This document shows positions 9,297 through 35,357 of a stretch of 64,000 nucleotides of DNA, piece by piece; positions within the stretch are counted from its first letter, which is position 1, and each line of letters starts with the position of its first letter. This DNA comes from Synechococcus sp. BIOS-U3-1 (GTDB lineage: Bacteria; Cyanobacteriota; Cyanobacteriia; PCC-6307; Cyanobiaceae). The notes under the pieces were generated by a model that saw only the letters and a list, made by a program, of their open reading frames with translations, searched no databases and had not been told where the DNA came from. Where the stretch lies: NCBI RefSeq assembly GCF_014279975.1, contig NZ_CP047936.1, forward strand, positions 248,001-312,000, in the 5' to 3' direction. The translations under genes and the position numbers were made by a program.

Positions 9297-9297
9297 A

Positions 9298-14480: not shown

Positions 14481-15425
14481 TCATATTAATTTTTTTAGTG
14501 GAATAGAAGTGATTCCAAATCCAGTAGATCCATAACCATTCCCATTGTGGAAGATGTAAAGATTGTTGTTATAGACAAAGGGGTAAGAATAGCAAACCAT
14601 TTCAGAAGCCCACTCACAGTTAAAATTACTATGCAACGAGAGTTCACTGCTGTTTTCCATAGGCCCCCAATTTTTTCCGTCAACAGAATATACATGGTGT
14701 ATTGAATATTCAGTCTTAGGTGATTTTTTGGAGTACCACATGTGAAATCCATTTTTTGTTTTAATCACAGATGGTCTTGCTAGTGATGTTATCTCTTCAG
14801 TATTATCTAAGCATACACATATATTTTGATCCCAATGTTTTCCATCGCTGGATTCAGCATACTTTATATTATAACAAGGCGTGTCCGGACTTTTCCATCC
14901 TGTTCCTGACACGTACCACATACGAAATATTGAAGATTTTTTATCAAATAAGACCCATGGAGCAGTAAGAACATGAAAAGGCTCACTGTCTGACAGTGTA
15001 AAGATTGGGGCTCTGCTCACTCTCGTATATTTGTTTCCCGCGATTTGTATTGCTAGGCCCCCAAATAATCCAAATCTGACAGTTGATCTAGGTTTCCAAC
15101 CTATATAGTAAAGCAATTTTGTAATATTTTCACTGCTGACCACAGACGATGGTGAGACTCCATTATCATCAAAACATCCCAATTCTCCTGGCTGAAATAC
15201 TGTTTCTACGCTTTTTCCAGATATGTGTGGAAAAGGTTCCATATCTATATGAATTCGTCTTATGAATGATCGGTTTTTTGCGTCTCTGTCCGCGAAAAGT
15301 ACTGCTATAACTGAATTTTGAATTGATTCTACTACCGGGAGCATGAAGTGCTGAATATCAGTATCAAATTTATTTTTCACTATTTCACGGGAAACAATTG
15401 GTTTGTCTGCAAGTTTGAATTTCAT
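14481..15425 (-). CDS. Glycosidase-like five-bladed beta-propeller protein (GH32/43 fold)
   Basis: 314 aa, no signal peptide, so probably cytoplasmic. Repeated blade-like segments are visible: HVLTAPWVLFDKKSSIFRMW, IKYAESSDGKHW, TSLARPSVIKTKNGFHMWYS, HHVYSVDGKNWG and CYSYPFVYNNNLYIFHNGNG. The pattern of hydrophobic-x-x-DG..W and RP.V is that of the arabinanase/levansucrase/invertase superfamily. Proteins of this kind occur inside nonulosonic-acid loci of other bacteria, where their role is not established. It is the last gene of the pseB-to-neuD operon, 6 bases after the acetyltransferase gene. Hydrolase activity is not shown by the sequence. Confidence 0.65.
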   Translation of the reverse strand: MKFKLADKPIVSREIVKNKFDTDIQHFMLPVVESIQNSVIAVLFADRDAKNRSFIRRIHIDMEPFPHISGKSVETVFQPGELGCFDDNGVSPSSVVSSENITKLLYYIGWKPRSTVRFGLFGGLAIQIAGNKYTRVSRAPIFTLSDSEPFHVLTAPWVLFDKKSSIFRMWYVSGTGWKSPDTPCYNIKYAESSDGKHWDQNICVCLDNTEEITSLARPSVIKTKNGFHMWYSKKSPKTEYSIHHVYSVDGKNWGPMENSSELSLHSNFNCEWASEMVCYSYPFVYNNNLYIFHNGNGYGSTGFGITSIPLKKLI

Positions 15426-15431
15426 TTGTTA

Positions 15432-16097
15432 TCAAAAGATATTTGCTGTGGACGAGTCACTTGAGATTATTCTGCCAGGTAGACCCATGACAACTGATGA
15501 AGAAGGTATATCCCTCAAGATGTTTGCTCCTGCACCAATCACAGCCCTTTCTCCAATATGGAGGCCATCTCTAATTGTACTATTGACTCCTATAAAGCAT
15601 GATTCTCCGATAGTGCACCTCCCACTAATTACAACATGGGATGTCACGAATGAGTGAGATTCAAGCTTTGAATGATGTCCAAAATGATTTCCACTCCACA
15701 TAATTACATTATTTCCGATCTCTGCAAAGTGTTGTATAACATTGTTTTCTAATATAAAACAGTTTTCCCCAACCTTTGCTGTTGAAAAAATAAGTGCATG
15801 CGGGCTTATATAAGATATAAAGTTATACCCTTTTGTTTTTGCTGTCATATAACGACTTTTTCTTGTTTCATTCACTTCTCTTGAACTCATAACAATAAGC
15901 ATTTTGCAGCTCTCGGGCGGAACTTTTTTCTCAATAGTTTCAAATTCATATAAAGGTAATCCAAAATAAGCTTCCTCAGAGATATAATTCGAATCGCATG
16001 TAAAACCAACTACTTCATAGCGCGGATCTGCCTTTAAATAAGTATATACAATTTCGGCCATTTGGCCATTTCCATAAATCAATATTCGTTCAACCAT
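15432..16097 (-). CDS. NeuD-family sugar O/N-acetyltransferase (left-handed beta-helix)
   Basis: 221 aa. An N-terminal PglD/NeuD-like nucleotide-binding segment (RILIYGNGQMAEIVYTYL) precedes a left-handed beta-helix built from hexapeptide repeats (VGENCFILENNVIQHFAEIG, IGESCFIGVNSTIRDGLHIG, IGAGANIL). The catalytic-type His falls in the SGNHFGHHSK segment. NeuD-like enzymes acetylate sialic acid or related sugars. This is the only acetyltransferase in the pse-type operon, so it could O-acetylate the product or stand in for the missing PseH. Its start overlaps the aminotransferase gene by 8 bases. Confidence 0.82.
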   Translation of the reverse strand: MVERILIYGNGQMAEIVYTYLKADPRYEVVGFTCDSNYISEEAYFGLPLYEFETIEKKVPPESCKMLIVMSSREVNETRKSRYMTAKTKGYNFISYISPHALIFSTAKVGENCFILENNVIQHFAEIGNNVIMWSGNHFGHHSKLESHSFVTSHVVISGRCTIGESCFIGVNSTIRDGLHIGERAVIGAGANILRDIPSSSVVMGLPGRIISSDSSTANIF

Positions 16098-17169
16098 AGT
16101 TTAGGAAACCTGTGATAACTTTAATCGTAGATTTTAGCTCATCGCTTTTTCCGTTGTTGATTGGAAAGTTCAATATACGATTCGTGAAATCCGTCGCTTG
16201 CGACTTTTCTTTCTGATGAAACCCTAATATAAGAGGTAGAGAGGGATAAAGCTTATTGGCACTTAAATCACAAGCCCACAATCTTTGAAGCAATTCATCC
16301 CTAGAATTTTTTGATTTCATTAAAATCGAAAACCTCCATAAAACATCAGTGTCTTTTGAATCTAAGATTCTTATTTGGCCTGAGTATGGTTTTAATAGGG
16401 TTGTTACATATCTAGTTGTTTTTTTGTATTGAGCACAAATCTCATTTACAGTTTGCAATTTTCTTTCTATATCTTGTTTTTTTGCTGGATCCCCATTATG
16501 TGTATAGTACTCACTCCATTTAAGCATCAGTCGGTACATCTCCTTTTTACTGCATACATCCTCATCCTTGTCTGTAATTAAATTAAGTAGTCTATAGTAT
16601 TCATCACGAAAAGCAGTATTTCCATTATTAGCGGAATTGTACTTTTTATTTTCAGGTTTAATTGCGAAATTCGACAATCTTGTTTTAATTAAGCCTCCAC
16701 CTCCTAGGTTTATTTGCTTTGAGCTTCCAAAGCTATAAACTGCAAAGTCGCCATAAGAGCCCATTAAATCATTGGTTTTACATCTGTATTCCGAGAGAAC
16801 GGATTGAGCACAATCTTCCAATATGAATACACCATATTTATCGCATATATATTTAATTTTCCCCATATCCTGTACTATTCCGTTTATGTGAGCGCAAAAT
16901 AGTATTATTTGCTTTGTTTCTTTGATTGGCATGTCCCTTAATCTTTCTGATAGCGAATCTATGCTCATGTTGCCTGTATTTATATCTGTATCAATAAATT
17001 CATACATCACCTTGGCTTGCCATATTGCCATTAAAACCTGAAAGCATATATTGCAAGGCAGGATTACTATTGTTTGACTTTCTCTCTCTCTCATCCACCG
17101 AAGAATATGATAAATTCCATTCGTCGCAGATTTCGTTAATATAGAGTTTTTAGGAAAGACTTTCAACAT
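16090..17169 (-). CDS. DegT/DnrJ/EryC1-family PLP sugar aminotransferase, divergent
   Basis: 359 aa. The fold type I PLP pattern is visible: LPCNICFQVLMAIWQAKVMY, then GVFILEDCAQSVLSEY with the cofactor-binding Asp, and YSFGSSKQINLGGGGLI, where the Lys probably forms the Schiff base. The SSKQ context differs from the usual SFHPTK and the sequence is divergent from the PseC-like aminotransferase of this operon, so it probably acts on another sugar. It overlaps pseI by 20 bases and the acetyltransferase gene by 8 bases. The substrate is unknown. Confidence 0.78.
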   Translation of the reverse strand: MLKVFPKNSILTKSATNGIYHILRWMRERESQTIVILPCNICFQVLMAIWQAKVMYEFIDTDINTGNMSIDSLSERLRDMPIKETKQIILFCAHINGIVQDMGKIKYICDKYGVFILEDCAQSVLSEYRCKTNDLMGSYGDFAVYSFGSSKQINLGGGGLIKTRLSNFAIKPENKKYNSANNGNTAFRDEYYRLLNLITDKDEDVCSKKEMYRLMLKWSEYYTHNGDPAKKQDIERKLQTVNEICAQYKKTTRYVTTLLKPYSGQIRILDSKDTDVLWRFSILMKSKNSRDELLQRLWACDLSANKLYPSLPLILGFHQKEKSQATDFTNRILNFPINNGKSDELKSTIKVITGFLNYG

Positions 17170-18175
17170 CTTCTTTCGTTAATGGTGTTCCAGTTTTAAT
17201 ATCTTTTTTCGCGCGCAGTCCTATTACTTTTTCCAGCATACATGGATGTAAGCCGTTAGCGGGTCTTATAGAGCGAAGATCTTCTCGTTGAATTATATCA
17301 CCCTTCATTATGTCATTTACTACATACAATGACCTCCTATATTTATACGCTGTTTTCTCACTTTCTGTAGGACCAAATTCTTTTCTCCCTATGGTCTTAG
17401 AATATTCTTTAATCATATATACTAATTCTTTGAATTCAGCCGGTGTTAGGGAAAAAGCAGAGTCAAGAGCACCATCGCTACGTTCTAGTGTGATGTGTTT
17501 CTCAAATACCCTTGCTCCTGCGCCCATGGCTATCAAAGGAAGGTGAATTCCAAGGGAGTGATCAGATAGTCCAACGTTACATTCATATCTTTTTATTAGT
17601 TCAGGTATTCTTGCAATATTTGCATCTGTTAGAGGTGCCGGATAAGCGGCAGTACACTGTAAAAGCGTTAGATCTTTACAATTTGAAGCCAAATAACTAG
17701 TGTATATTCTTTCTATCTCCTCAATTGAAGCCATTCCCAGTGATACCAGGCATTTTTTAGCGTTTTTTAGCACATATCTCACGAATTCAATGTCATTTGC
17801 TTCTGATGATGCTACTTTGAGATTCTTGCAACCAATTGATACTATTTCATCAGTTGTTCTTGAGTCGAATGGCGTACAAATAAAATCTATTTTGTTTTCT
17901 TGGCAGTATTTTTTTATTCTTCCTTGCCACTCGAAATGCATAGCACCCTCGGTATAGATATCGAACAATGTTCTACCCTGCCATAATGTATCACGAAGCA
18001 AAAATTCCGACCTATTTGATTCAATTGTAATCGATTCTGGCCTGTAATGTTGCGTTTTAATGGCATTTACATTCGCCCATTTGCAACTATCTAGAAGTCG
18101 AAGACATCGTTCCCAGCTATTGCCATGATTTCCTGAAATCTCTGCGATGACATAACAGGTTTCCATTGTTTTCAT
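17150..18175 (-). CDS. pseI: Nonulosonic (pseudaminic/sialic) acid synthase, PseI/NeuB family
   Basis: 341 aa from the ATG at 18175, which overlaps the stop of the WbqC-like gene by one base; a longer frame to 18223 is unlikely. The TIM-barrel synthase domain starts YVIAEISGNHG and contains AIKTQHYRP, FICTPFD, KVASSEANDIEFV, LLQCTAAYP and VGLSDHSLG. A C-terminal SAF/antifreeze-like domain starts near residue 285 (YVVNDIMKGDIIQREDLRSI). The family condenses phosphoenolpyruvate with a 6-carbon sugar to make a 9-carbon acid. The product is probably pseudaminic-type because pseB, pseC and a pseG-like gene are in the same operon, but sequence alone does not exclude legionaminate. Confidence 0.9.
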   Translation of the reverse strand: MKTMETCYVIAEISGNHGNSWERCLRLLDSCKWANVNAIKTQHYRPESITIESNRSEFLLRDTLWQGRTLFDIYTEGAMHFEWQGRIKKYCQENKIDFICTPFDSRTTDEIVSIGCKNLKVASSEANDIEFVRYVLKNAKKCLVSLGMASIEEIERIYTSYLASNCKDLTLLQCTAAYPAPLTDANIARIPELIKRYECNVGLSDHSLGIHLPLIAMGAGARVFEKHITLERSDGALDSAFSLTPAEFKELVYMIKEYSKTIGRKEFGPTESEKTAYKYRRSLYVVNDIMKGDIIQREDLRSIRPANGLHPCMLEKVIGLRAKKDIKTGTPLTKEDVESLS

Positions 18176-18906
18176 TACTTTATCTGTCTTAATGTGCTTG
18201 AGGCTTGAATAAGACTTAGCCATTCCGATTTATCGGCGTGCAACATAAGATCTAACACACTTAAATTAGGAATGAAATTTGTATTGCTAGGATACTCTTT
18301 TTGTTCATAGCTTATTGAATAAGTCTTGCACCCTTTATTCCAGAATTTATTGATAAGCGGTTGTGCATAGTCAAGTGACCTTGATGGCATTATATAGTCA
18401 GTTCCACTAGTAATTTCTAAGATGTCAATTAGTCGGTCAACAGGGGTTTCATACATCGTATCACTATTTTCAAGCGATGATGCCATTATCATTTCTACCT
18501 GTATTCCTAAGGACCTTAGACTCTCCTTTATCAACGATACATTTAATTGGACCAATTTGGTGTATTTATAGTTGATTATTTGAATGATGTTTTCAAGAAC
18601 TTCGTGGTTGATGATTTTCTTTGCAGGAAAATCTATTCTTAATCTCGATACGAGATTCTTTGGGTATTTGTCGGTTCTTATTTCGATATCCTTTATTAAC
18701 TTTGAATCTACGTGCTTATGGTATACCGGAACTGTGTAAGTTACCTTTTGTCCTTTGTGATTCATAAAAAATCTGTTCTGCGCACCTCCTTTTGAAAAAT
18801 TTACCACATCTAATATTACTAGTAAATCTACATTCATCGCTAGTGAAAAAAAACCACCCCACGGTATCAGAGCAGGTTGCATAATTCCGATTCTACGGGA
18901 TTTCAT
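18175..18906 (-). CDS. WbqC family protein
   Basis: 243 aa. It begins IGIMQPALIPWGGFFSLAMN and continues LLVILDVVNFSKGGAQNRFF, the hallmark MQP...G.F and D.V.F.K....NR blocks of the WbqC family. DYIMPSRSLDYAQP and FIPNLSVLDLMLH near the C-terminus are also typical. Members occur in O-antigen and nonulosonate loci. Their reaction is not firmly established; an acyl or amino-acid transfer to sugars has been proposed. The start overlaps the methyltransferase stop by 4 bases and its stop overlaps the pseI start by one. Confidence 0.8.
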   Translation of the reverse strand: MKSRRIGIMQPALIPWGGFFSLAMNVDLLVILDVVNFSKGGAQNRFFMNHKGQKVTYTVPVYHKHVDSKLIKDIEIRTDKYPKNLVSRLRIDFPAKKIINHEVLENIIQIINYKYTKLVQLNVSLIKESLRSLGIQVEMIMASSLENSDTMYETPVDRLIDILEITSGTDYIMPSRSLDYAQPLINKFWNKGCKTYSISYEQKEYPSNTNFIPNLSVLDLMLHADKSEWLSLIQASSTLRQIK

Positions 18907-19853
18907 AATTCCTCTGACTCAGTAATTCTATCTTGAATTAAGCTTTCGAGTAACTCATTTTGTGAAATTTTCTTAGATTTAGCTTCTTTTACAATCCAAC
19001 TTTTTAATTCTGGATTTATTCCATCTAATTTCCCATGGTATCTCTTATGCATGGTTCCACCTCGAGGACTCTTGTGCCTAATATTGGGATTAATTTTTAG
19101 TGTATTCATTAGCTTTGTAAATTTAATCATATAGAAGCAATTTCTAACAATATACTCACAAGTTACATTTGTTGCGTTTATTGGTATTTGTGTAATTGGA
19201 GCACTGTGGGCATAAAGGGAGTTATTTTCTATGACCATTTTTCCTATATCTGTGTTCCTTAACCATGGGGCTACTGACTCATCTGAAAATACTACTACTC
19301 CGTCCTGTGGCTTAACGCATCTTGCCATCTCGTCAATTGCCTTTTCAATGTTTGCAAAACGATTTATTCCACCGAAATGATGTATATAATCAAATTCATC
19401 ATTATTTAAAGGAAGGCAGCAGGCATCTCCATTGAAAATTATTATTTTATTGCCTTTACTTGAATGCTTTTCTAGGATTTCATTGCCGATATTTTCATAG
19501 ATATGTTGTATAAAGACGCTTGAAATGTCCTGAGCCACAATTGTACAATTTTTTCTTTCTTGATCAGATATTATTTTTAGGATTTCTATTAATTCATGGC
19601 CAAGCCCTACACCTGTTATTAGTATCTTCATGCCATCTATTGTTTCTAGGTATTTGAACAGTTCATGGCGGAGTTCTTTGTCTGTCATGCAGAATGTTCC
19701 GTAAAACCATTCCAAATAGTTTTGATAAAAATCAATACTACTTTGAAGCATATACTCTATTTGACCAGTTGTAAGCTTTTCTTGACTTTCTTCTTCAAAG
19801 AAATATCTTGTCAATATTTTTTTCGATTCCGACTTCAATGTGTATTTGAACAT
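18903..19853 (-). CDS. SAM-dependent class I methyltransferase
   Basis: 316 aa. A Rossmann methyltransferase core is visible: MKILITGVGLGHELIEILKI (SAM-binding G-x-G-x-G variant), CTIVAQDISSVFI (acidic residue on strand 2), IIIFNGDACCLPLNNDEFDY and ARCVKPQDGVVVFSD. The N-terminal 85 residues and C-terminal basic tail (KSKKISQNELLESLIQD) are accessory. Its place between the pseG-like and wbqC-like genes, with only 3 bases and a 4-base overlap, suggests it methylates the nonulosonic acid or its precursor, but the target cannot be deduced. Confidence 0.8.
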   Translation of the reverse strand: MFKYTLKSESKKILTRYFFEEESQEKLTTGQIEYMLQSSIDFYQNYLEWFYGTFCMTDKELRHELFKYLETIDGMKILITGVGLGHELIEILKIISDQERKNCTIVAQDISSVFIQHIYENIGNEILEKHSSKGNKIIIFNGDACCLPLNNDEFDYIHHFGGINRFANIEKAIDEMARCVKPQDGVVVFSDESVAPWLRNTDIGKMVIENNSLYAHSAPITQIPINATNVTCEYIVRNCFYMIKFTKLMNTLKINPNIRHKSPRGGTMHKRYHGKLDGINPELKSWIVKEAKSKKISQNELLESLIQDRITESEEL

Positions 19854-19856
19854 TGT

Positions 19857-20810
19857 CTATTCTGATAGTAGGTTTATGATCGCTTCTTTGATAGGGCGAC
19901 CACTCATGACATTATAATACTGTTCTTCAGGCCACTCTTTAAATGAGGCCTTCATGCCACACTTCACAAATGTATTTAATACATCGGAGCTTAATTCACC
20001 AATCATGCATGAATCTACTGACGTTTGGGTTTCGAAAGCACTGTTAGCTCTTCTATGGTGTTGATCTGGATGAATAAGATAAAGTTTTTTCCTATTCAAT
20101 GTACCGTCATATTTGATTAGGCCACTAGAGCTTATCATATGTGTCGAATTTTGAATGTATTTGAAGAAGTCTTGGCCGATATCTTTTGCAAATTTAAATT
20201 GTGATTTATCGAAATTGTATGTTGTTGCTGGAGATGAAGTATAATAGACGATTACACTATTTCTTAGTTCATTGCATTTTTGTATGCCTGTCAAAACCTC
20301 TCTTGTTATACTCGCTGGATCACTATATCCTGCTGATAACAGTATTTTATGCTTACCTTTTGCTCTCTGATCATATAGCTTCGATTTACCATCCCATGTT
20401 AGTCCTCCATAAGTGTGTAAATGTGGACCATAAATTGTGTTTTGTAGGTCGTGGCATTTCAGCTCTTCTTTATTAATGCAGTATGGCAATATAGTTTTGA
20501 TATTTTCGCAAAAGAGATCTGCAATATGCCTATCTTGAGCTAACCCCTCAATTGCAATGACTTTCCTATAGTTAGAGTTTTTGACAAAGAACTTTTTCTT
20601 TGGTAATTGCCTATAGAACTTAGGCGAGCACACATCTAAAATTATGTTTAAATTTATATTTGTCTTTAGTATTTGCTTTAAGTCATTATAGTTTTTTGCT
20701 TGATAGATCTTGGGATCGTTGTCCCTCATTAATCTTCTAATTCTATTGAGCCTTGTGACATGTCCGCTTCCATATGTCATTGCATCTAGTCCGATCATCA
20801 CTACTTGCAT
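19857..20810 (-). CDS. pseG: PseG-like UDP-sugar hydrolase (GT-B fold)
   Basis: 317 aa. The N-terminal motif YGSGHVTRLNRIRRL matches the G-x-G-H-x-x-R of PseG, whose His is catalytic, and KHKILLSAGYSDPASI corresponds to the GGSDP segment that opens the second Rossmann domain. SSGLIKYDGTLNRKKLYLI matches the nucleotide-binding TSSG region. PseG removes UDP from UDP-2,4-diacetamido-trideoxy-altropyranose before the PseI condensation. Sequence is divergent from Campylobacter PseG, so a related hydrolase or GT28-like transferase remains possible. The location between pseC and pseI supports the PseG role. Confidence 0.68.
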   Translation of the reverse strand: MQVVMIGLDAMTYGSGHVTRLNRIRRLMRDNDPKIYQAKNYNDLKQILKTNINLNIILDVCSPKFYRQLPKKKFFVKNSNYRKVIAIEGLAQDRHIADLFCENIKTILPYCINKEELKCHDLQNTIYGPHLHTYGGLTWDGKSKLYDQRAKGKHKILLSAGYSDPASITREVLTGIQKCNELRNSVIVYYTSSPATTYNFDKSQFKFAKDIGQDFFKYIQNSTHMISSSGLIKYDGTLNRKKLYLIHPDQHHRRANSAFETQTSVDSCMIGELSSDVLNTFVKCGMKASFKEWPEEQYYNVMSGRPIKEAIINLLSE

Positions 20811-20994
20811 TTATAGCCTTTTTTGAATATAAGACTATTTCAGCGATCTTCCCTTTTTTTGTCAAGCTATTTGCTATGTTCTGCTGTTTTTTGTCATGCT
20901 GGCTATTTCTCCTGGATGCTAATTTATCTTTATATCTTTGGTCGTTGTTAGATCGTTATACTTTTACAGGCTTTGCGTATAATTCTTAATTTAA

Positions 20995-21900
20995 CTATTT
21001 TGTCTTTGGTTTCCATGTTCGAGGATCCAAAAAGTCTGATTCGATATTTATTTTTCGAATTTCTGCTGATTGATCCCAGTCGTTATTAGTATTCCATGAC
21101 CTGTATATGCCATCAAGTTGTTTCTTGCTACATATACCGATGACTACAGCTTCAATCATTTGCAATGATCTAGCAAAACCCAGGCAAGTGTCTAGCATTG
21201 TTTTCCCAATTGATGCAGAATAAATTTCTAAGGCTCTAAAATGCTTAATTACTTCCCTTGGTGTCTCTAATGGCCAATTTGATGAAGGAGTTAATAAAAG
21301 TCCTTGGAGAAAGATGCTTCTTGCATGTACGGCTATACCATTATCGGTTAATTTTTTAATCGTACCGTCTCTAATTAGACGTTGATCTAAAACTGATAGC
21401 GGCAGTTGTACGATATCAATATACTTAAGATTGATATCCTTCAAATCATCACTTGTATATATTGAGATTCCAATGCGCTTAGTTAGCCCCTCTGACTTAA
21501 TCTTATTAAGCCAATTTAGTAAATATTCATTTCCTTCTTTCCTTAAGTCATTGACCGAATGAAGTAGCAATGAATCAAGTGAGGCTACACATAGTTTATT
21601 AAGTGAGTTATTTAAACTTGTATCCCAATCCTTTGTGTGGTTCTCGTTGAAAACCATCTCGTTTTGCGGTGATAATTTGCTTATTATTTTAAATTTATCA
21701 TTTATTAAACCGCTTTTGCCTAATATTTCTTCGGCACATCCATAAGACTGTGCACTATCAATTATATCAATGCCCATATCGTGTGCATGAGTCAAAATTT
21801 CTTTGACATTTTCAAATGCCACTTGCCCTAGGTTGTTCGTAACACCATAGTTTGATCCAAATTGTGCCGTTCCTAGGCATATGGCAGGCACTTTACTCAT
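20995..21900 (-). CDS. Aldo/keto reductase family protein
   Basis: 301 aa. The AKR barrel is recognisable from LGTAQFGSNYGVTNN, MGIDIIDSAQSYGCAEEILG (Asp and Tyr of the catalytic tetrad), KIISKLSP with the Lys, and DSLLLHSVNDL with the His. These reductases are frequent members of pseudaminate and legionaminate loci without an assigned step; reduction of a keto sugar is the obvious possibility. Its start overlaps the pseC stop by 4 bases. A gap of 184 bases separates it from the pseG-like gene, in which I see no gene or clear hairpin. Confidence 0.88.
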   Translation of the reverse strand: MSKVPAICLGTAQFGSNYGVTNNLGQVAFENVKEILTHAHDMGIDIIDSAQSYGCAEEILGKSGLINDKFKIISKLSPQNEMVFNENHTKDWDTSLNNSLNKLCVASLDSLLLHSVNDLRKEGNEYLLNWLNKIKSEGLTKRIGISIYTSDDLKDINLKYIDIVQLPLSVLDQRLIRDGTIKKLTDNGIAVHARSIFLQGLLLTPSSNWPLETPREVIKHFRALEIYSASIGKTMLDTCLGFARSLQMIEAVVIGICSKKQLDGIYRSWNTNNDWDQSAEIRKINIESDFLDPRTWKPKTK

Positions 21901-24061: not shown

Positions 24062-24947
24062 TTTACTAGGACTCATGCTTTTTTACCTCTCTACATCCTA
24101 GCATCTAAGCAACAACTTTATATTCTTATTAACTTATTATCCCAGCAGCCTGTTTCTCTCCAATTTGCACTGGCAATCATTACTTTATAAATGCGATAGC
24201 TTTATGTTTTTTTGTTTCTAATGCCTATAACCTCCCCCCTTTGATCATTCTCCTTTTTGCCTGGCAGCGACCTTTCAAATCTTTTTCTAGATTCTCTACC
24301 TTCGAGTAATTATTTATTCGTTGCATCTACCAAGTATGCTTAATACATAGTCACTTAGATTTGTCTCTGTTTTAGTTTTTCGTTTTGCCTCTATGTATTG
24401 CTTTGTACTCTATACTTTTGCTTAATAATTTTTTGACTTCTAATTTATTGGGGCTTCACTTATATCAACCTTTTTTTTACTTCATAGATTTTTGATTCTT
24501 TTTCTATTTTCTTTTGCTCGTTAATCTCTTGTTGACTGCATTAGTGGTTACTCTTTTCTCAGCTTCACCGTTGATTTTTCTTTGTATGTCCGTTTTCTCT
24601 GTCTTGGTAGCTTTATTTAGTATCCTTCAATTGTTTTTGCGTAATACAAAGTTTCATTATTGTGCCAGCGATTACCTTTGGCATCATTAACCTATACTTT
24701 TTTCTGACGCCCTTTCCCTGCTATTTATTTTACTGATGATTTTTCATTGAATCCAACGAATGGTCTTTCTATCGTTGTATATTTAATAATACTAAGTGAG
24801 CTTTGTGTTATCATTTGCATATTTGACACTTTGCCTTGACCTTAGCCATTTAGGATCATTGATTCCCTCAGCTTTTATCCAATATTGTACTTCTCTTTGA
24901 ATTACTCTTCTTTTGGCTAAAACGGCTTTTCCTTTTTCGATATCATT
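24062..24947. promoter_or_regulatory. Divergent intergenic region, strongly T-biased on the plus strand
   Basis: 886 bases between pseB (minus) and the dioxygenase-like gene (plus) with no coding feature that I recognise. Both operons must start here, so promoters are expected, but I could not identify specific elements. The base composition is extreme: at 24361-24420 I count 35 T and 6 A. No long inverted or tandem repeat was noticed. Confidence 0.45.
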
Positions 24948-25697
24948 ATGAATTGGCTGCGAAATTTCCATTTAGTTGATTTACCATCTTCTTTGCCTTG
25001 TTTTTCACCTGAAAAGGTATCTATTGACAATATAAGAACCGTTATTTCCAATAATATACCGTGTGCAATCGTTAAGAATTTTTATCCATCCAATCTTTCT
25101 CTTGCAGCTGCGAACGAAATTGAGCAGTGGGCATTTACTTTACCACCCCATAATACGAGACTTGAGCCTGATCGCACATCATCTAATTTTTGGAGCCTTG
25201 ATATTTTACCCCGATCTGTCTTAACTAATAGAGTTATGCGGGATTTTATGCTTGGCGATCTTTCTAGTTCTTCATTTCAATTTTCAGATACTTACAAGCT
25301 TTTTGACAAACTAAATTCATTTCATTTTTCTCATGTACTCAACAATGATGTAAATGCTATTCAAGCCTTTAAATATGCTCCTCAAATCTTACATATTCCT
25401 GAGGGTGGAGGATTCTTTGATTGGCATGTTCACTCCAGGTACCCTCAAAACTACGGCTTTCTGTTAATGATTAAATCTAACACGATTGTTGAGAGTTCAA
25501 ATGCCCCGGCTTCTATGATAGTGAAGTTTGATGATATCATTTATTCTACTCAAGGTGTACTATCCCCTGGCGATCTTTTTATTTTCAGATATGACTTGCT
25601 CCATGCAATTACTCCACATCTTCCACTAAATGATCTCAATCTTTCACACAGTGGGGCTTATTTTGCTGTAAATCCTCTTATCAAGCCTTGTTCTTAA
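24948..25697 (+). CDS. Fe(II)/2-oxoglutarate-dioxygenase-like protein
   Basis: 249 aa. The C-terminal half has the layout of a double-stranded beta-helix oxygenase: GGGFFDWHVHSRYPQNYGFL with His160-Val-His162, and SPGDLFIFRYDLLHAITPH with His219 as the distal metal ligand. The usual first ligand pair is His-x-Asp/Glu, so His-x-His is unusual. The N-terminal half contains a segment with NIPCAIVKNFYP, typical of hydroxylase openings. It is the first gene of the plus-strand operon and could hydroxylate a sugar or lipid in the glycan. The family assignment rests on motif spacing only. Confidence 0.55.
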   Translation: MNWLRNFHLVDLPSSLPCFSPEKVSIDNIRTVISNNIPCAIVKNFYPSNLSLAAANEIEQWAFTLPPHNTRLEPDRTSSNFWSLDILPRSVLTNRVMRDFMLGDLSSSSFQFSDTYKLFDKLNSFHFSHVLNNDVNAIQAFKYAPQILHIPEGGGFFDWHVHSRYPQNYGFLLMIKSNTIVESSNAPASMIVKFDDIIYSTQGVLSPGDLFIFRYDLLHAITPHLPLNDLNLSHSGAYFAVNPLIKPCS

Positions 25698-25828
25698 ATT
25701 CTCAGCTAATTTTGACTATCATTGTTTTTTATTTTTGATTGTTTCCTGCTACATTTCACTTCTTTAGTTTTGCCACCTCCCAAATTTTAGACTCTTTACT
25801 ACCAAGCCTTCCTAATTGATAATATACA

Positions 25829-27208
25829 ATGTCTTTTCAACAACTTTGTGAGTCTTCACCTTATAACTTTATTTCTTCCTCTAATATTAAATTAATTGCC
25901 TCTCTTTCTCTCTCTCTCCAGTCTGCATTGGCCAGTACCTTATCTATACAATCCTCATATTCTGTTTTTACTGGCAATGAGGAGAAATGTTATTTATGGT
26001 ATCTACTTACCTATGTTGAATCTTGTCAATCGTGTCTTCCAGAACCCCGCGCATACCCTTCTAATTTTTCACTTAGCATAGCTAGTTTAGATTTAGAATC
26101 TACTTCTACTTCTACTTCCTCCTCTCTTTCTTTTAAAAGGCGACTGCCTCTTTTCTTCAAGCGTTTTTTACTCCATCTTCCTGACAAGCTTTTTCATATC
26201 CACAAGCTTCGAAAATTCAATCTTTTTCACTATTCCTCACACCTGTCTGGCAGCTCTAAGGTTTGTCGAAATTTTACATATCTTTTTGCATCTCACCTAT
26301 CTGATCGTCATTCGCCTCGATTACGTTCAATATTTTTGAATAATCTCTTGTCATATGGTCTTTCACCTATTATTGCTCATTCAATAGTTAATTCATTTCC
26401 ACTAAGCCACCTGGAGCATTATTTTTATTTTTCTTCCCACTATTTACACAAAACATGTCATGTTTCTTCGTATTTTGCCTCTATTTATGGAATTCTTGAA
26501 GATCCTCTTTTGAGTTATCTCGCAAGAAATTCTTCGGTTTCCTTATATTATGTTGCTCATGGAGGCGGATATGGTCTCCACCCAAACCTACTTTTGCATT
26601 ATATTGAATCGACTGGGTGTAGCGAACTCATCTTGTGGTGTTTCGGTAGATTTCCAATTCGACAAACTCGTTTCCCAAAAAAAATTATTAAACATAAAGT
26701 TCCAATCATTGCTTTTGTTTTAAGTGTTGGTGCCAATCCGCAATGTATCAGTTATTTTACTCGTTTATCTCATCAAATAAATTATATGTTACGCAATTCT
26801 GGCTTTACTTCAAAAGTTTTTCTTCATCCAAACTCTTTACATATTAACGAATTTATCCATCTGGATGTTGGCGTCTCCCATAAACTTCATTCCTCTTACT
26901 CTCTTGTTGTCTATGACAATATAGGTCATACACTTATGTGGGATCGTATTGAGAACAATTTGGCTTTCCTTATCGTTGATTACGATCATCCTATTGACTA
27001 CGATCTTTTGGACAAAGATGTTATGAATTTTGTTAAGTTTCTTTCTGGTTTAAAGATATTACTTGGTTCAGATCAAGTACTCGGAGAGATTTTATATCTT
27101 ATTCATTCAATGATTGAACTTGAGCCATTTCCAGAACGTTATGTAAGGTTGAATGCATGGTACCAGTCTTTTCCCGATTTATTTGAGTTAGCTTCTTCTC
27201 TGGCATAG
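25829..27208 (+). CDS. Putative sugar transferase of the LIC12162-like group
   Basis: 459 aa, unusually rich in Ser, Leu, Phe and His, matching the T-rich coding strand. There is no signal peptide. A central YYVAHGGGYGLHPN (His244) resembles the HGGGYG motif of the putative transferases found in nonulosonate loci of Leptospira and others. After it come PIIAFVLSVGA, VFLHPNSLHI, SYSLVVYDNIGHT and LGSDQVLGEILYLI, compatible with the C-terminal half of a GT-B fold. It may attach the nonulosonic acid or a related sugar. The similarity is weak and function unproven. Confidence 0.45.
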   Translation: MSFQQLCESSPYNFISSSNIKLIASLSLSLQSALASTLSIQSSYSVFTGNEEKCYLWYLLTYVESCQSCLPEPRAYPSNFSLSIASLDLESTSTSTSSSLSFKRRLPLFFKRFLLHLPDKLFHIHKLRKFNLFHYSSHLSGSSKVCRNFTYLFASHLSDRHSPRLRSIFLNNLLSYGLSPIIAHSIVNSFPLSHLEHYFYFSSHYLHKTCHVSSYFASIYGILEDPLLSYLARNSSVSLYYVAHGGGYGLHPNLLLHYIESTGCSELILWCFGRFPIRQTRFPKKIIKHKVPIIAFVLSVGANPQCISYFTRLSHQINYMLRNSGFTSKVFLHPNSLHINEFIHLDVGVSHKLHSSYSLVVYDNIGHTLMWDRIENNLAFLIVDYDHPIDYDLLDKDVMNFVKFLSGLKILLGSDQVLGEILYLIHSMIELEPFPERYVRLNAWYQSFPDLFELASSLA

Positions 27209-27324
27209 CCTGTTTACTTTGCGATTTTCTTTAGAATATTTTTTATCAATATTTATTTGATTTTTTTTATTTTTTTCGTGGCTTCAGTGAAAATGGTAAA
27301 ATTGATAAATTGTTTTTGCTCCGT

Positions 27325-28629
27325 ATGTCTATTGAGAGATGGAGACGCGCTTTAAAGGTCATTCCCGGAGGTAATTCACTTCTTTCTAAGAGACCTAATC
27401 TTTTTGCTCCCACAAATTGGCCAACATATTTTAGTAAATCTAAGGGTTGTTATGTATGGGACCTTGAAGGTAAACAGTATTTAGATATGTCTATTATGGG
27501 TATAGGCCCCAATACACTCGGTTACGCCAACAGTAACGTTGACCGTGAAGTTATTAGTGCCATCAATAATGGAACAATGTCTACCCTTAATGCTTTTGAA
27601 GAAGTACTTTTAGCTGAAAAGCTTGTTGATTTACATCCCTGGTCCGACATGGCCAGATTTGCAAAATCCGGCGGTGAGGCTAACGCGATTTCTGTTCGAA
27701 TTGCTCGAGCGGCTACTGGTCGCGAGATCATTTTATTTTGTGGATATCATGGTTGGCATGATTGGTACTTAGCTTCTCAGCATTCTAGTGATTCACTTAG
27801 ATCTCATCTTTTTAGTGACACTGGTATTGCCGGTGTACCTCATTCCTTAAGCGGCACCTCTTATCCGTTTGAATGGAATAATATTAAATCCCTCGAAAAC
27901 TTGTTACGTCAACATTCATCTAATGTCGCCGCTATTAAAATGGAAGTTACTAGAAATATCTTGCCGATGCCAGGTTTTCTTGAATCTGTTCGTCACTTAT
28001 GTGATAAGTATGGTGTTGTTCTTATATTTGATGAATGTACATCTGGTTTTCGTGAATCATATGGTGGTTTGCATCTTAAATATTCTGTTTCTCCTGACTT
28101 AGCTGTTTTCGGGAAGGCTCTCGGTAACGGTTATCCAATTACTGCTGTGATAGGCCGAGAATCAATTATGAAGTCTGCCACGAATACTTTTTTAAGCAGT
28201 ACCTTTTGGTCTGACCGTATTGGTTTTGTTGCTGCTCTTGCGACTCTTGATGAAATGTATCGCACTAAAAGCTGGGCTGTCATAACAGATGTTGGAAAAC
28301 GTGTTCAATCCATATGGTTCAATGCTGCTTCTCGGTATCAGATTTCCATTGATTGCGGTGTTATTCCAGCCATTAGTAATTTACAGTTTTTAAATACTCC
28401 ACGCGCTATTGAATATAGAAGTTATTTTACCCAAGTTATGCTTGAAAATAATATCTTAGGTGGGACTCTGTTTTTTGCATCCACAGCTCACCAAGATGTC
28501 AACTTGAAACTCTATGAGTCTTTGATTGATTCCATTTTTCTTCAAATATCAAAAAGAGAGTCTGATCTCTTGCCCCCACTTGTTCGTGAGGACCAGCTTG
28601 TTGCTACTACTTTTAAGCGCCTTAACTAA
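27325..28629 (+). CDS. Class III PLP aminotransferase/aminomutase (glutamate-semialdehyde-aminomutase-like)
   Basis: 434 aa from the ATG at 27325; a TTG five codons earlier is possible. It opens RRALKVIPGGNSLLSKRP, as in GsaM-like proteins. Other blocks are ARFAKSGGEANAISVRIARA, ILFCGYHGWHDWY, VVLIFDECTSGFRESYGG with the cofactor Asp, and LAVFGKALGNGYPITAVIG with the PLP Lys. It is not the heme-pathway HemL, because it ends two bases before pseF in a sugar operon and the C-terminus differs. Such proteins occur beside cytidylyltransferases in nonulosonate loci, perhaps to aminate the sugar or a side-group precursor. Confidence 0.82.
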   Translation: MSIERWRRALKVIPGGNSLLSKRPNLFAPTNWPTYFSKSKGCYVWDLEGKQYLDMSIMGIGPNTLGYANSNVDREVISAINNGTMSTLNAFEEVLLAEKLVDLHPWSDMARFAKSGGEANAISVRIARAATGREIILFCGYHGWHDWYLASQHSSDSLRSHLFSDTGIAGVPHSLSGTSYPFEWNNIKSLENLLRQHSSNVAAIKMEVTRNILPMPGFLESVRHLCDKYGVVLIFDECTSGFRESYGGLHLKYSVSPDLAVFGKALGNGYPITAVIGRESIMKSATNTFLSSTFWSDRIGFVAALATLDEMYRTKSWAVITDVGKRVQSIWFNAASRYQISIDCGVIPAISNLQFLNTPRAIEYRSYFTQVMLENNILGGTLFFASTAHQDVNLKLYESLIDSIFLQISKRESDLLPPLVREDQLVATTFKRLN

Positions 28630-28631
28630 CT

Positions 28632-29327
28632 ATGCGTCTTCTTATCACTGTTTTGGCACGCGGTGGCTCTAGAAGAGTACCAAGAAAAAACATCCGCCTT
28701 CTCTCTGGTGTCCCTGTTATCTTTCATACTTTAAATGTCATTCGCGATTCTAATATTTCTTCAGATATTGTCGTATCAACAGAAGATCCTGAGATTTCAC
28801 AACTTATTGCTACCTCATCTTTTAGCTCCTCTCTAAGGCTTCGACCTCATTATTTGTCCTCTGATACAACTCCCTCATTTGCTGTAATTCAGCACATACT
28901 TGACTCGGAGGATTCTTCTGGCTGCAACTTCACTCATGTGTTAAATATTCCTCCTACTGCAGCACTTATACGTGTAGATGATTTATGGAATCTATGTTCA
29001 TTTGCCACCAAATTTCCAACATCTTCTATTATTAGTGTGAAGCCTTTTAATGTTCCTTTTGAGTCCTCTTACATAATGTCTGATGAGTTAGATCTTTTGC
29101 CTAATCGCCCAGATTTGTTTACCTCTAATACGCAAAGTTTTGCACGCAGTTATTACGATTGTGGGCTTTATTCTTTAATCCCAGTCAAGTATATTCGATC
29201 TTGGCCATCTTATGAATTCTATAAGGTATCGTTAAAAGGTCTTTCAATTAATCATCCATGTGTTGATGTGGATGATGAGTCTGACTGGGATGATCTTGTA
29301 TCTCTGTTTCAAGCTTTTTCTTCCTAG
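28632..29327 (+). CDS. pseF: CMP-pseudaminic/sialic acid cytidylyltransferase (PseF/NeuA family)
   Basis: 231 aa. N-terminal ITVLARGGSRRVPRKNIRLL is the CTP-binding signature (A-R-x-G-S-x-x-x-P-x-K-N). Other family blocks are SDIVVSTEDPEIS, LSSDTTPSFAVIQHIL, LNIPPTAALIRVDD, YYDCGLYSL and HPCVDVDDESDWD. It activates the nonulosonic acid as its CMP derivative before transfer. It starts two bases after the aminotransferase stop. It supplies the activation step for the pseI product encoded on the opposite strand across the divergent gap. PseF versus NeuA/LegF specificity is inferred from the accompanying pse genes. Confidence 0.85.
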   Translation: MRLLITVLARGGSRRVPRKNIRLLSGVPVIFHTLNVIRDSNISSDIVVSTEDPEISQLIATSSFSSSLRLRPHYLSSDTTPSFAVIQHILDSEDSSGCNFTHVLNIPPTAALIRVDDLWNLCSFATKFPTSSIISVKPFNVPFESSYIMSDELDLLPNRPDLFTSNTQSFARSYYDCGLYSLIPVKYIRSWPSYEFYKVSLKGLSINHPCVDVDDESDWDDLVSLFQAFSS

Positions 29328-29479
29328 TCTTGTTTTTGTACACGATTCCACTTCTTTCCCTGTGTTGCTTCTCCCCACCCACCCATTCTATTGTTTCTTT
29401 CGCTGACTTTTTTGTTTTCCTAGTGTTTTGATTTTGAGCATATTGCTCTATTTCTTTTTTACCTTACCCTGATCTCTTT

Positions 29480-30607
29480 ATGTACAAAATCTGCTCACGA
29501 ACCGTAATGGATACTAGTGATACTCGTATCACTTTTAATGACGAAGGTGTTTGCGATCATGCTATTGATTTTTATGAAAATGTATTGCCTAATTGGCATG
29601 TAGGCCAGCAAGGCCAAGAATATATTCACAGCGTCATACAAAAAATCAAGCATGATGGCCTTAATCGTGAATTTGATTGCATTCTGGGTCTTAGTGGTGG
29701 TGTTGATAGTTCTTACATGCTGCATCTCGCTGTTAAGGAATATGGTTTGAGGCCTCTTGTTTTTCATGTTGACGGGGGTTGGAATTCTGAATTGGCTGTA
29801 CATAATATTCATGTTTTGGTTGAGAAGTTGGGTCTCGACCTTTTTACTGAGGTTATCAACTGGGAGGAAATGCGCGATTTCCAACTTGCTTGGTTTAAGT
29901 CTGGAGTACCTCATATAGACCTTCCCCAGGACCACGCTTTTGTCGCTACACTTTATAATTTTGCTGCTAAGCATGGAATTAGATATATCCTTAATGGTGG
30001 CAATATTTCTACGGAGTGTGTAAGAAATCCTATGGAGTATTTTTATTACGGCACCGATATGATTCACATTAAAGACATTATCAGACGTTTTGGTCAGGTA
30101 CAAATGCAAACATATCCCTTCAGCTCTATCCTGCGCCATAAAATCTACTTGCGTTATTTCCGCAGGATAAAAGTCTTTCGGCTTCTCAATCATCGGGAAT
30201 ATATCAAATCTGATGCTGTCAAACTCCTCCAGAGAGAATATGATTGGAAGTCTTATCCGCAAAAACACTTCGAATCGCGTTTTACTAAGTTCTACGAGTC
30301 TTATTGGCTCCCTGAGCGTTTTGGCTTTGATCCCCGTCGAGTTCAATTCTCAAGTTTGATCCTCACGGGTCAAATGTCTCGTGATGACGCACTGAGTTGC
30401 CTGAAGAAGCCTGCTTACGATTCTTCCACTATTGGTCTAGATTTTGAGTATGTAGCTACCAAACTTCGTATAAGCATAGATGAGCTGACTCATTACTTAA
30501 GGATGCCTAAGCGGTTCTATTGGGATTACAGGAATCAAGAAAAACTTTTCAACACCGGTGCCCATATTCTCAAGGCTATTGGGCTGGAGACTTCGATTAA
30601 GCGATGA
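29480..30607 (+). CDS. N-acetyl-sugar amidotransferase (PseA/WbpG/LegA family)
   Basis: 375 aa. The PP-loop ATP-binding motif ILGLSGGVDSSYM lies near residue 76, followed by LVFHVDGGWNSELA and ILNGGNISTEC, all typical of the family. With the two downstream proteins it would form an acetamidino group on a sugar. The N-terminus (ICSRT, VCDHA) keeps Cys5 and Cys25, but the second Cys of each expected C-x-x-C pair is Thr8 or Ala28. It overlaps the HisH2 gene by 4 bases. The acetamidino group could go onto the nonulosonate (as with PseA) or onto an aminouronate (as with WbpG). Confidence 0.88.
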   Translation: MYKICSRTVMDTSDTRITFNDEGVCDHAIDFYENVLPNWHVGQQGQEYIHSVIQKIKHDGLNREFDCILGLSGGVDSSYMLHLAVKEYGLRPLVFHVDGGWNSELAVHNIHVLVEKLGLDLFTEVINWEEMRDFQLAWFKSGVPHIDLPQDHAFVATLYNFAAKHGIRYILNGGNISTECVRNPMEYFYYGTDMIHIKDIIRRFGQVQMQTYPFSSILRHKIYLRYFRRIKVFRLLNHREYIKSDAVKLLQREYDWKSYPQKHFESRFTKFYESYWLPERFGFDPRRVQFSSLILTGQMSRDDALSCLKKPAYDSSTIGLDFEYVATKLRISIDELTHYLRMPKRFYWDYRNQEKLFNTGAHILKAIGLETSIKR

Positions 30608-31218
30608 TTACTATTGTTGATTACGGTCTAGGTAACGTTAAGGCGATTGCTAACATTTATAATAGGCTTGGTATTGCTTGCTCGATAGCGCGTGACCCTG
30701 ATGAGTTGATACGCTCGAAACGATTAATTTTGCCTGGTGTTGGCGCTTTCGATTGGGCAATTAAGCGACTGGAGGCTTCTCGTTTGCGTCCCGTTCTTGA
30801 TGAGCTTGTCATTAATCGGCGGGTCCCAGTTCTAGGTATCTGCGTTGGTATGCAGATTATGGCTAATCGAAGTGAAGAAGGCCTTCTTCCTGGTCTGGGT
30901 TGGATACCCGGTGACGTCAAGCGTTTTGATGAGAACTTGCTGTCGTCAAAGATATGCTTGCCTCATATAGGATGGAATAATGTTATTGCGAACGATCATT
31001 CATTGTTTGGCAATATCTTGGATCCACGCTTTTATTTTTTGCATTCATATTATTTCCTGCCATGTTCTGTAGATCTGATTTTGGCCAAAACTCATTATGG
31101 TTTACCTTTTGCCTCCGCAGTCTGCCTTGATCATGTGATCGGTGTTCAGTTTCATCCTGAGAAGAGTCATCGCTGGGGTACTCAGCTTCTGCAAAACTTT
31201 GCTCAATTTGAGGTTTAG
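30604..31218 (+). CDS. hisH2: HisH2: glutaminase subunit of sugar acetamidino synthesis
   Basis: 204 aa. Class I glutamine amidotransferase: VDYGLGNVKAI at the N-terminus, LPGVGAF as oxyanion strand, nucleophile Cys in PVLGICVGMQIM, HSYYF, and His/Glu in GVQFHPEKSH. It is related to HisH of histidine biosynthesis. The operon position, between the sugar amidotransferase and HisF2 genes, argues for sugar amidation: it supplies ammonia from glutamine. The ATG overlaps the upstream stop by 4 bases, and the next gene starts 8 bases downstream. Confidence 0.87.
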   Translation: MITIVDYGLGNVKAIANIYNRLGIACSIARDPDELIRSKRLILPGVGAFDWAIKRLEASRLRPVLDELVINRRVPVLGICVGMQIMANRSEEGLLPGLGWIPGDVKRFDENLLSSKICLPHIGWNNVIANDHSLFGNILDPRFYFLHSYYFLPCSVDLILAKTHYGLPFASAVCLDHVIGVQFHPEKSHRWGTQLLQNFAQFEV

Positions 31219-31226
31219 CTCTTTCC

Positions 31227-31997
31227 ATGTTGCGCGCTCGAATTATTCCATGTCTCTTGGTTCATAATGGTGGCTTGGTTAAGACCACCCGCTTCGGTGG
31301 CTCGAAATATATTGGAGACCCTCTGAATGCTGTTCGAATTTTTAACGAGAAGCAAGTCGACGAGCTGATTGTTGTCGATATTGATGCCACAACTAAGGAT
31401 CTTGAACCCAATTATGGCTTAATTGCTAATCTTGCTGCCGAATGTCGGATGCCATTGTGCTACGGCGGTGGTGTTAGAACTGTTGAGCAGATTGAGCGAA
31501 TAGTAAGTCTTGGCGTCGAAAAGGTCAGTCTTGGTAGTGCAGCAGCCTATAACCCTGGCCTGATTAAGCTGGCGTCTCAGCGAGTTGGAAGCCAGAGCAT
31601 CGTCGCTGTTATGGATGTGAAAAAGAGTAGTTTCCGTGGCCGCTATGAAGTTCTCACGCATAACGGCTCTAAAAAGACAGGCTGTAATCCTGTTGAGATG
31701 GCTCGTCAGTTGCAAGCATTAGGGGCTGGTGAAATTTTGCTTAACTCGATTGATCGCGACGGAACCATGAAGGGCTATGACCTAGGACTCATTGATGCCG
31801 TCAGAAAGGTCACTCGGCTACCGATGACGGTCATTGGCGGTGCGGGATCTTTCGATGATATGCGGGCATTGGTCATCCGCTACGGAGTGATTGGGGCTGC
31901 CGCCGGCAGCTTGTTTGTTTTCAAGGGTAAGTATCGCGCTGTCTTGATCCAGTACCCACAGCCATCTGAAATAGATTTGTTATCAGCTGTCCTATGA
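31227..31997 (+). CDS. hisF2: HisF2 (AglZ/WbuZ family): partner in sugar acetamidino synthesis
   Basis: 256 aa TIM barrel related to HisF. The opening RIIPCLLVHNGGLVKTTRFG has Leu where the histidine-pathway enzyme has catalytic Asp11, the substitution seen in the WbuZ/AglZ group. Other blocks include ELIVVDIDATTKD, PLCYGGGVRTVEQ, GVEKVSLGSAA, VAVMDVKKSSF, EILLNSIDRDGTMKGYDL and PMTVIGGAGSFDDM. With HisH2 and the PP-loop amidotransferase it forms the standard trio that converts an acetamido to an acetamidino group. It is the last gene of the divergent plus-strand operon or read through into the next. Confidence 0.88.
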   Translation: MLRARIIPCLLVHNGGLVKTTRFGGSKYIGDPLNAVRIFNEKQVDELIVVDIDATTKDLEPNYGLIANLAAECRMPLCYGGGVRTVEQIERIVSLGVEKVSLGSAAAYNPGLIKLASQRVGSQSIVAVMDVKKSSFRGRYEVLTHNGSKKTGCNPVEMARQLQALGAGEILLNSIDRDGTMKGYDLGLIDAVRKVTRLPMTVIGGAGSFDDMRALVIRYGVIGAAAGSLFVFKGKYRAVLIQYPQPSEIDLLSAVL

Positions 31998-32050
31998 CGT
32001 TTTGACGCTTAGCCGATCCGAGCAATCTTCTCGTTGCTGATAGTTCACCT

Positions 32051-35355: not shown

Positions 35356-35357
35356 AC

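Follow-up and report, generated by a model that had tools for sequence, protein, structure and literature searches.

A stretch of 64,000 nucleotides from Synechococcus sp. BIOS-U3-1 (positions 248001-312000 of the single contig of this 2.71 Mb genome; here called the window, with positions counted from its first letter) was analysed for its surface-sugar genes. We think it likely that two sugar modules lie side by side here in one surface-polysaccharide region, a pseudaminate (Pse)-type module at 14481-29327 and an acetamidino-hexosamine-type module at 29480-39208. An earlier sequence-only reading of the window had joined a trio of genes, encoding an amidotransferase, HisH2 and HisF2, to the nonulosonate locus. 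The composition, the gene linkage in relatives, the tree position and a terminator-like stem instead point to the cassette at 32051-39208 as the place of the trio.

The genes were called by profile matches to NCBIfam (with curated cut-offs), Pfam and PHROGs, and all open reading frames (ORFs) that the earlier reading had named were found in place. The minus-strand operon (24076-14481) encodes, in this order, PseB, PseC, an aldo-keto reductase (AKR), a PseG-like protein, a methyltransferase, WbqC, PseI, a DegT-family aminotransferase, a NeuD/PglD-type acetyltransferase and a protein without a family. The plus-strand half (24948-29327) encodes two proteins without a family, a class III aminotransferase (AT3) and a PseF-like cytidylyltransferase. 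The trio occupies 29480-31997. It is followed by the genes for a two-domain oxidoreductase (Zn-alcohol dehydrogenase plus Gfo/Idh/MocA, ADH-Gfo), WecC, a heparinase II/III-like protein and a GT4-sugar transferase fusion. PseB, PseC and PseI score above their curated cut-offs, and the divergent Pse-type locus with extra genes that had been claimed is real; it ends after pseF (29327).

The border between pseF and the trio

The G+C content of third codon positions was 0.26-0.29 from the first plus-strand gene, encoding a 249-aa protein, to pseF (0.28). It was 0.39, 0.39 and 0.47 in the three genes of the trio, 0.57 in the ADH-Gfo gene and 0.57-0.69 across the genes for ADH-Gfo, WecC and the heparinase. 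The third-position T was 0.50-0.52 up to pseF, 0.45, 0.48 and 0.36 in the trio and 0.30 in ADH-Gfo. The gap between pseF and the amidotransferase gene measures 152 bases, that between the genes of HisF2 and ADH-Gfo 53 bases. On the plus strand at 29436-29448 a terminator-like stem with a T-rich tail was found; it has five pairs only (1 found; in shuffled sequences mean 0.0, standard deviation 0.1).

Gene linkage of the amidotransferase relatives

Species genomes were scanned with an alignment of eight amidotransferases. This gave 572 confirmed relatives, and the best 80, which share 49-71% identity with the window enzyme, were retained with flanks of at most 10 kb. Neighbours were counted at E 1e-6. 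Among the FnlA and FnlB genes only FnlA was counted, since the FnlB-like matches of 24-30% identity may be other reductases. ADH-Gfo was present in 52 of the 80 loci, FnlA in 21 and either of them in 70; WecC occurred in 28 and the heparinase in 17. Going up to 6 kb downstream on the plus strand, the first other gene that could be classified was ADH-Gfo in 47 loci, FnlA in 18, GT4 in 2 and LegC in 1, with none in 12. Neither ADH-Gfo nor FnlA was found in 10 loci, four of which end within 1.5 kb of the amidotransferase. The closest relative among the best 80 (L047, 71%) has the order WbuX-HisH2-HisF2-ADHGfo-Hepar-GT4. The linkage in 70 of 80 loci indicates that the trio travels with hexosamine-type cassettes.

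A NeuB-family gene occurred in 9 of the 80 loci, and all nine also carry ADH-Gfo or FnlA. Where nonulosonate genes are near, the whole cassette is thus their neighbour. This is the case in Brevirhabdus (L057), where Pse genes with AKR and AT3 are followed by WbuX-HisH2-HisF2-ADH-Gfo in the order of the window. One polysaccharide may hold both sugars.

Clades of the amidotransferase

A different amidotransferase is found in the host-family locus L146 (genome G071), which reads PseC-AKR-amidotransferase-HisH-HisF-cytidylyltransferase-AT3-PseG-PseI and has its trio embedded in the nonulosonate locus. This enzyme is 24% identical to that of the window. Used as a query, it matched 33 places in 26 of 201 host-family genomes and nothing in the genome of the window at E 1e-10. 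Several L146-type enzymes lie in Leg-type loci (L158-L161, with LegC, NeuC and NeuB). The trio of the window is not embedded among pse genes but stands at their edge, after pseF and before ADH-Gfo and WecC.

A tree built from 63 rows placed the 19 of the L146 type on one side (support 100*) and the window enzyme inside an ADH-Gfo/Fnl clade of 36 rows (99*). This tree omitted the loci with neither ADH-Gfo nor Fnl, the plasmid rows, second copies, the short L142 fragment, the 681-aa protein of L163 and, save for six named loci, every second ADH-Gfo/Fnl row. A tree of 93 rows agreed: its counterpart of the ADH-Gfo/Fnl clade, 79 rows in size (100*), includes the window enzyme; here the L126 fragment was omitted and the second copies in L058, L060 and L082 bore the label of their locus. 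The window enzyme therefore groups with the FnlA- and ADH-Gfo-linked amidotransferases, whose genes it also adjoins, and not with the Pse/Leg-embedded ones. As the result that would speak against it, the sequence-only reading had named a phylogeny in which the functional clades of pseI and of the amidotransferase are unrelated; this result was obtained in the sense that the amidotransferase falls outside the Pse/Leg-embedded clade.

Comparison with reference enzymes gave the same picture. The amidotransferase of E. coli O118/O151, encoded beside fnlA-wbjC-wecB, is 49% identical to the window enzyme over 370 aa and 24-28% identical, over 125-176 aa, to the four L146-type enzymes compared with it. 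The solved Legionella enzyme 8wex matches the Leg-type L161 at E 5.8e-196 and the window amidotransferase only at 6.6e-4. WbpG leads to ManNAc3NAmA and the O145 WbuX to L-FucNAm (PMC10607449); by analogy with the latter, the E. coli O118/O151 cassette would be of the FucNAm type. The earlier reading had left both acetamidino readings open, on a nonulosonate and on a hexosamine derivative. Clade and identities largely close this choice in favour of the hexosamine type.

Two further observations concern the L146 type. L146 and L152 (G135) each combine an L146-type amidotransferase with AT3 and PseI, with HisH/HisF matches in L146 and none in L152; from their gene content, these loci appear to be better candidates for acetamidino-pseudaminate than the window. 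Two different L146-type amidotransferases occur in one locus in L154 (4154-5308 and 6797-8044; G055) and in L155 (2448-3578 and 5066-6313; G027).

Genes of the trio and the downstream cassette

The presence of the trio had been read correctly. The WbuX/WbpG-type N-acetyl sugar amidotransferase, a PP-loop protein (29480..30607, plus strand), matches TIGR03573 with 285.8 bits (cut-off 203.2). The HisH2 glutaminase (30604..31218, plus) matches TIGR01855 with 198.3 bits (cut-off 105.4) and the HisF2/AglZ partner (31227..31997, plus) NF038364 with 368.4 bits (cut-off 310). The three genes are thus contiguous and all above their cut-offs. A hisF above its cut-off sits elsewhere in the genome (C1:678022-678786, 345.6 bits).

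The plus strand continues with ADH-Gfo (32051..34150; PF00107, PF01408) and the UDP-ManNAc dehydrogenase WecC (34123..35355; NF008286 with 511.8 bits, cut-off 459), which had been correctly placed a little downstream. The heparinase II/III-like protein (35358..37319; PF07940, PF16889) and a GT4 glycosyltransferase fused to an initiating sugar-phosphate transferase (37316..39208; PF13579, PF02397) complete the cassette. Since WecC is above its cut-off and wecB lies elsewhere in the genome (C1:1931680-1932756), UDP-ManNAcA could be made.

The amidotransferase, HisH2 and HisF2 retain 81 of 82, 41 of 42 and 72 of 73 columns that are invariant among up to 40 relatives. The positions of the zinc tetracysteine read C, T, C, A in the window amidotransferase (T at position 8, A at position 28), and all four cysteines are present in 88 of 93 amidotransferase rows. 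The other four exceptions (L071, L079, L087 and L098) have losses in the same motif; they form one clade and are all labelled FnlA-linked. Of 129 columns that do not vary among 11 relatives, the heparinase-like protein retains 107; the relatives themselves retain at least 93%.

Genes of the Pse-type locus

PseB, the inverting UDP-GlcNAc 4,6-dehydratase (23057..24076, minus strand; TIGR03589 479.6 bits, cut-off 407.75), retains 44 of 45 columns invariant among 29 relatives. The 4-aminotransferase PseC (21897..23060, minus; TIGR03588 528.3 bits, cut-off 423.5) retains 6 of 6 and AKR (20995..21900, minus; PF00248) 33 of 34 invariant columns. The pseudaminate synthase PseI (17150..18223, minus) matches TIGR03586 with 350 bits (cut-off 340.25) and PDB 8h2c at E 2.7e-68; on the NeuB model it scores 226.6, under the cut-off of 399.65. 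It retains 19 of 20 invariant columns, and a first scan of genome contigs with PseI alone gave no relative. For PseF, WbqC, PglD and DegT, the close relatives were too few for such a column test.

PseG and PseF had also been named, the former as PseG-like. The putative, very divergent PseG, a UDP-sugar hydrolase (19857..20810, minus), has GSGHVTR near its N-terminus and matches no family in Pfam, NCBIfam or PHROGs. Its match to a home-made PseG profile is collinear and very weak (10.5 bits, E 8.6e-6 for one target; hhalign probability 11.7%). A plasmid search with this protein was empty, and among 292 genomes of the phylum it was found in its own only, where TIGR03590 for the canonical PseG has no match. 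Structure predictions made without homologues had a mean pLDDT of 31.6 for this protein and 35.5 for a 459-aa protein of the plus strand, and these models were not used. The PseF-like CMP-nonulosonate synthetase (28632..29327, plus), the last gene of the nonulosonate module, was found below its cut-off (TIGR03584, 93.1 against 205.7 bits). It is the sole TIGR03584 match in the genome and shares the ARGGSxRxPxKN motif with host-family cytidylyltransferases in an alignment. PseH is likewise below its cut-off throughout the genome (best 25.4 against 93.1), and the NeuD/PglD-type acetyltransferase (15432..16097, minus; TIGR03570 178.4 bits, cut-off 160.8) is a possible stand-in for it. With no other PseF, no match to the PseG model and no PseH above cut-off in the genome, the weak local candidates must serve, if the pathway works.

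Pfam matches bear out the other decorating genes that had been listed. These are the S-adenosylmethionine-dependent methyltransferase (18903..19853, minus; PF13489/PF08241), the WbqC-like protein (18175..18906, minus; PF08889 132.8 bits), the reductase AKR and the class III aminotransferase AT3 (27310..28629, plus; PF00202). A WbqC relative adjoins pseI in the host-family locus L144. The divergent DegT-family aminotransferase (16090..17169, minus) matches PF01041 with 91.8 bits, the best stretch being 7-164. The labels "propeller" (14481..15425, minus) and "dioxygenase-like" (the 249-aa protein, 24948..25697, plus) were not confirmed, as the former has no match in NCBIfam or Pfam and the latter none in NCBIfam, Pfam or PHROGs. 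The protein at 14481..15425 is matched by 32 plasmid records; the eight listed share 30-32% identity, seven of them annotated as hypothetical and one unannotated. The 459-aa protein (25829..27208, plus), which had not been named, matched nothing in NCBIfam, Pfam, PHROGs or the plasmids.

The T-rich intergenic region between the operons (24077..24947, 871 bases) was found as described, with T 0.46, C 0.21, A 0.20 and G 0.12. A promoter scan of 24060-24960 gave 2 promoter-like sites, no excess over the shuffle mean of 3.0. No tRNA or Rfam match at the gathering score was found across the window. To the left, a second low-GC block (0.33-0.35) lies at 8169-11998 and holds four ORFs on the minus strand, of which two have no NCBIfam match, and a high-GC glycosyltransferase gene (13166-14410) stands between it and the pse operon.

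The sense strand is rich in pyrimidines in the plus-strand genes as far as pseF, with third-position T at 0.50-0.52, and rich in purines in the minus-strand operon. Among 131 low-GC ORFs of sixteen host-family loci, just 10 have a third-position T of 0.48 or more. AT3 retains 57 of 60 invariant columns. Its relatives are fused to a cytidylyltransferase in the pse loci L127 (677 aa, 46% identity) and L147 (703 aa, 52%). Such fusions within Pse loci tie the right half of the locus to the left.

Proposed roles

Each enzymatic step given here for this organism is a prediction; the gene identities, the module border, the linkage and the tree position are what was read from the sequences. In the first module, PseB and PseC would make a UDP-4-amino sugar that is probably acetylated by the PglD-type enzyme. 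The PseG-like protein would then release UDP, PseI would condense the sugar with phosphoenolpyruvate and the PseF-like protein would make the CMP-sugar. AKR, AT3, the methyltransferase and WbqC may modify the nonulosonate or its precursor. In the second module, HisH2 and HisF2 would supply ammonia. Consuming ATP, the WbuX-type PP-loop enzyme may use it to convert an acetamido group on a UDP-hexosamine or hexosaminuronate to acetamidino; the use of ATP in acetamido amidation is a proposal of PMC10607449. ADH-Gfo and WecC would oxidise this sugar or a neighbouring one, and its transfer would be the task of the GT4 protein. The exact identity of the substrate is something we infer. What the genes support is a Pse-like sugar and, separate from it, an acetamidino form of a hexosamine or hexosaminuronate; acetamidino-pseudaminate as the product of the window is not supported.

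Alternative explanations

The trio could instead act on the nonulosonate with an activity of the PseA type (the function of PseA is named in PMC13317340) and give acetamidino-pseudaminate, which we regard as improbable. It does stand directly after pseF on the same strand, Pse- and Leg-embedded trios do exist in the host family (L146, L155 and L158-L161), and a NeuB-family match occurs within 10 kb at 14 of 33 L146-type places, compared with 2 of 9 window-type places outside the genome of the window. These matches are places found with the window PseI at E 1e-20, so that weaker relatives are uncounted. However, this proximity belongs to enzymes of another clade, only distantly similar to that of the window and absent from its genome at the threshold given above, and the relatives of the window enzyme accompany ADH-Gfo or FnlA in most loci. 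Several points nevertheless weigh against assigning the trio to a hexosamine cassette. The trio is intermediate in composition, and with its position behind pseF a read-through is possible. Nine cassettes near a NeuB-family gene, with L057 in the order of the window, make some functional tie possible. A Tannerella cluster with wecC and wecB is described as carrying an AsnB-like amidotransferase predicted to place an acetamidino group on Pse (PMC6120980), so that a nearby WecC alone does not exclude acetamidino-Pse. Both trees were quick ones with long-branch warnings, their L146-type rows were picked by similarity to L146, and L047, L070, L084 and L112 are in neither because no ORF was inside the length and score limits. 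They also lack an experimentally proven PseA (Campylobacter) or WbpG, and for the E. coli enzyme the comparison was limited to BLAST. In the other module, the identifications of PseG and PseF are to be taken as weak.

The trio and the right-hand cassette might also be defunct, which seems very unlikely. Half of the zinc site of the amidotransferase is lost, in a tetracysteine motif described as conserved (PMC10607449), and the heparinase has diverged beyond its relatives; this too counts against a working second module, and the amidotransferase activity is not assured on this sequence. Against decay, the three trio proteins keep all but one each of their invariant columns, and the four other enzymes with losses in the same motif form a clade of their own, flanked by HisH2 and HisF2. 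The last alternative concerns the Pse module itself, whose right half (24948-29327) could be a separate arrival that does not serve the left operon. The third-position T of 50-52% in the right half against 27-37% in the left operon would fit this. It is unlikely in view of the AT3 relatives fused to a cytidylyltransferase inside the PseB-PseC-AKR-PseG-PseI loci L127 and L147; moreover, no left-operon protein matches a cytidylyltransferase family and the genome has no second PseF match. We thus retain two neighbouring modules, both of known kinds, and as a find the locus is mostly ordinary. It corrects a tempting pathway prediction: abutting sugar cassettes should not be read as one. The comparison also points to a working rule for acetamidino genes: within our sample, the clade of the amidotransferase and its neighbours (ADH-Gfo or FnlA against NeuB-family) separate a likely hexosamine use from a likely nonulosonate use.

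AKR and AT3 in pse loci

AKR was found in 13 of 201 host-family genomes, its own included, and in 8 of these 13 within 10 kb of a NeuB-family match. Its relatives adjoin pseC in L146, L147, L127 and L057 and stand one gene off in L129. Of 31 loci examined, six have an AKR relative, and four of them (L057, L127, L146 and L147, not L102 and L129) an AT3 relative as well. AKR and AT3 could constitute a Pse pathway branch not described so far, one that alters the nonulosonate itself, e.g. by epimerising it or by oxidising and aminating the side chain. We hold this to be doubtful. If it were true, the product of the window locus, and of related loci in Rhodobacterales and the host family, would be a Pse isomer or a triamino nonulosonate and not Pse5Ac7Ac. 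The basis is an AKR-bearing Pse cluster of Vibrio sp. B9-25K2, whose product is thought to be a PseAc2 variant of different configuration (PMC7371886), taken as a lead and not as a demonstration. In the literature, this paper was the sole result when pseudaminic acid, aldo-keto reductase and cytidylyltransferase were searched for jointly. The recurring pair is the best lead here to a new nonulosonate, and it is testable.

Comparison with known systems

In Campylobacter, pseA presumably adjoins hisH- and hisF-like genes, so that acetamidino genes are near nonulosonate genes as in the window; this likeness is one of gene order, not of sequence. The E. coli O118/O151 cassette amidotransferase-hisH-hisF2-fnlA-wbjC-wecB has the same trio in the same order, but continues with FnlA, WbjC and WecB where the window has ADH-Gfo, WecC and the heparinase. 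The widespread WbuX-HisH2-HisF2-ADHGfo-heparinase-GT4 cassette (for example L047, L053, L055, L058, L059; identity up to 71%) resembles the window in gene set and order after the trio, except that WecC is inserted between ADH-Gfo and the heparinase in the window.

Cluster B for a cell-associated polysaccharide of Sphingomonas has a WbuX/HisF2/HisH trio like the window, by gene names and not by sequence. In a colony-morphology screen, insertions hit its WbuX, HisF2 and HisH genes 12, 10 and 9 times (PMC11340318), which suggests that trios of this kind are important for a surface polysaccharide. In Pseudoalteromonas, opaque colonies require a heparinase gene that lies in a capsule operon, and in what is available of PMC10634453 no amidotransferase is shown beside it; this gene is likened to the window heparinase by description only, not by sequence.

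The Pse loci with both AKR and AT3 (L127 on a Pseudosulfitobacter plasmid, L147 and L146 of the host family, and the Brevirhabdus locus L057) share PseC, AKR, AT3, PseG, PseI and a cytidylyltransferase with the window, and L127 and L147 also PseB. They run in one direction, whereas the window has two divergent operons with AT3 and PseF separate and has a methyltransferase, DegT and the family-less proteins added. The Vibrio sp. B9-25K2 cluster combines PseB, PseC and PseG with AKR as in the window, a likeness by description only. It differs in that the Vibrio reductase is fused to an SpsF-like cytidylyltransferase and that a PseH homologue and a dehydrogenase are present (PMC7371886).

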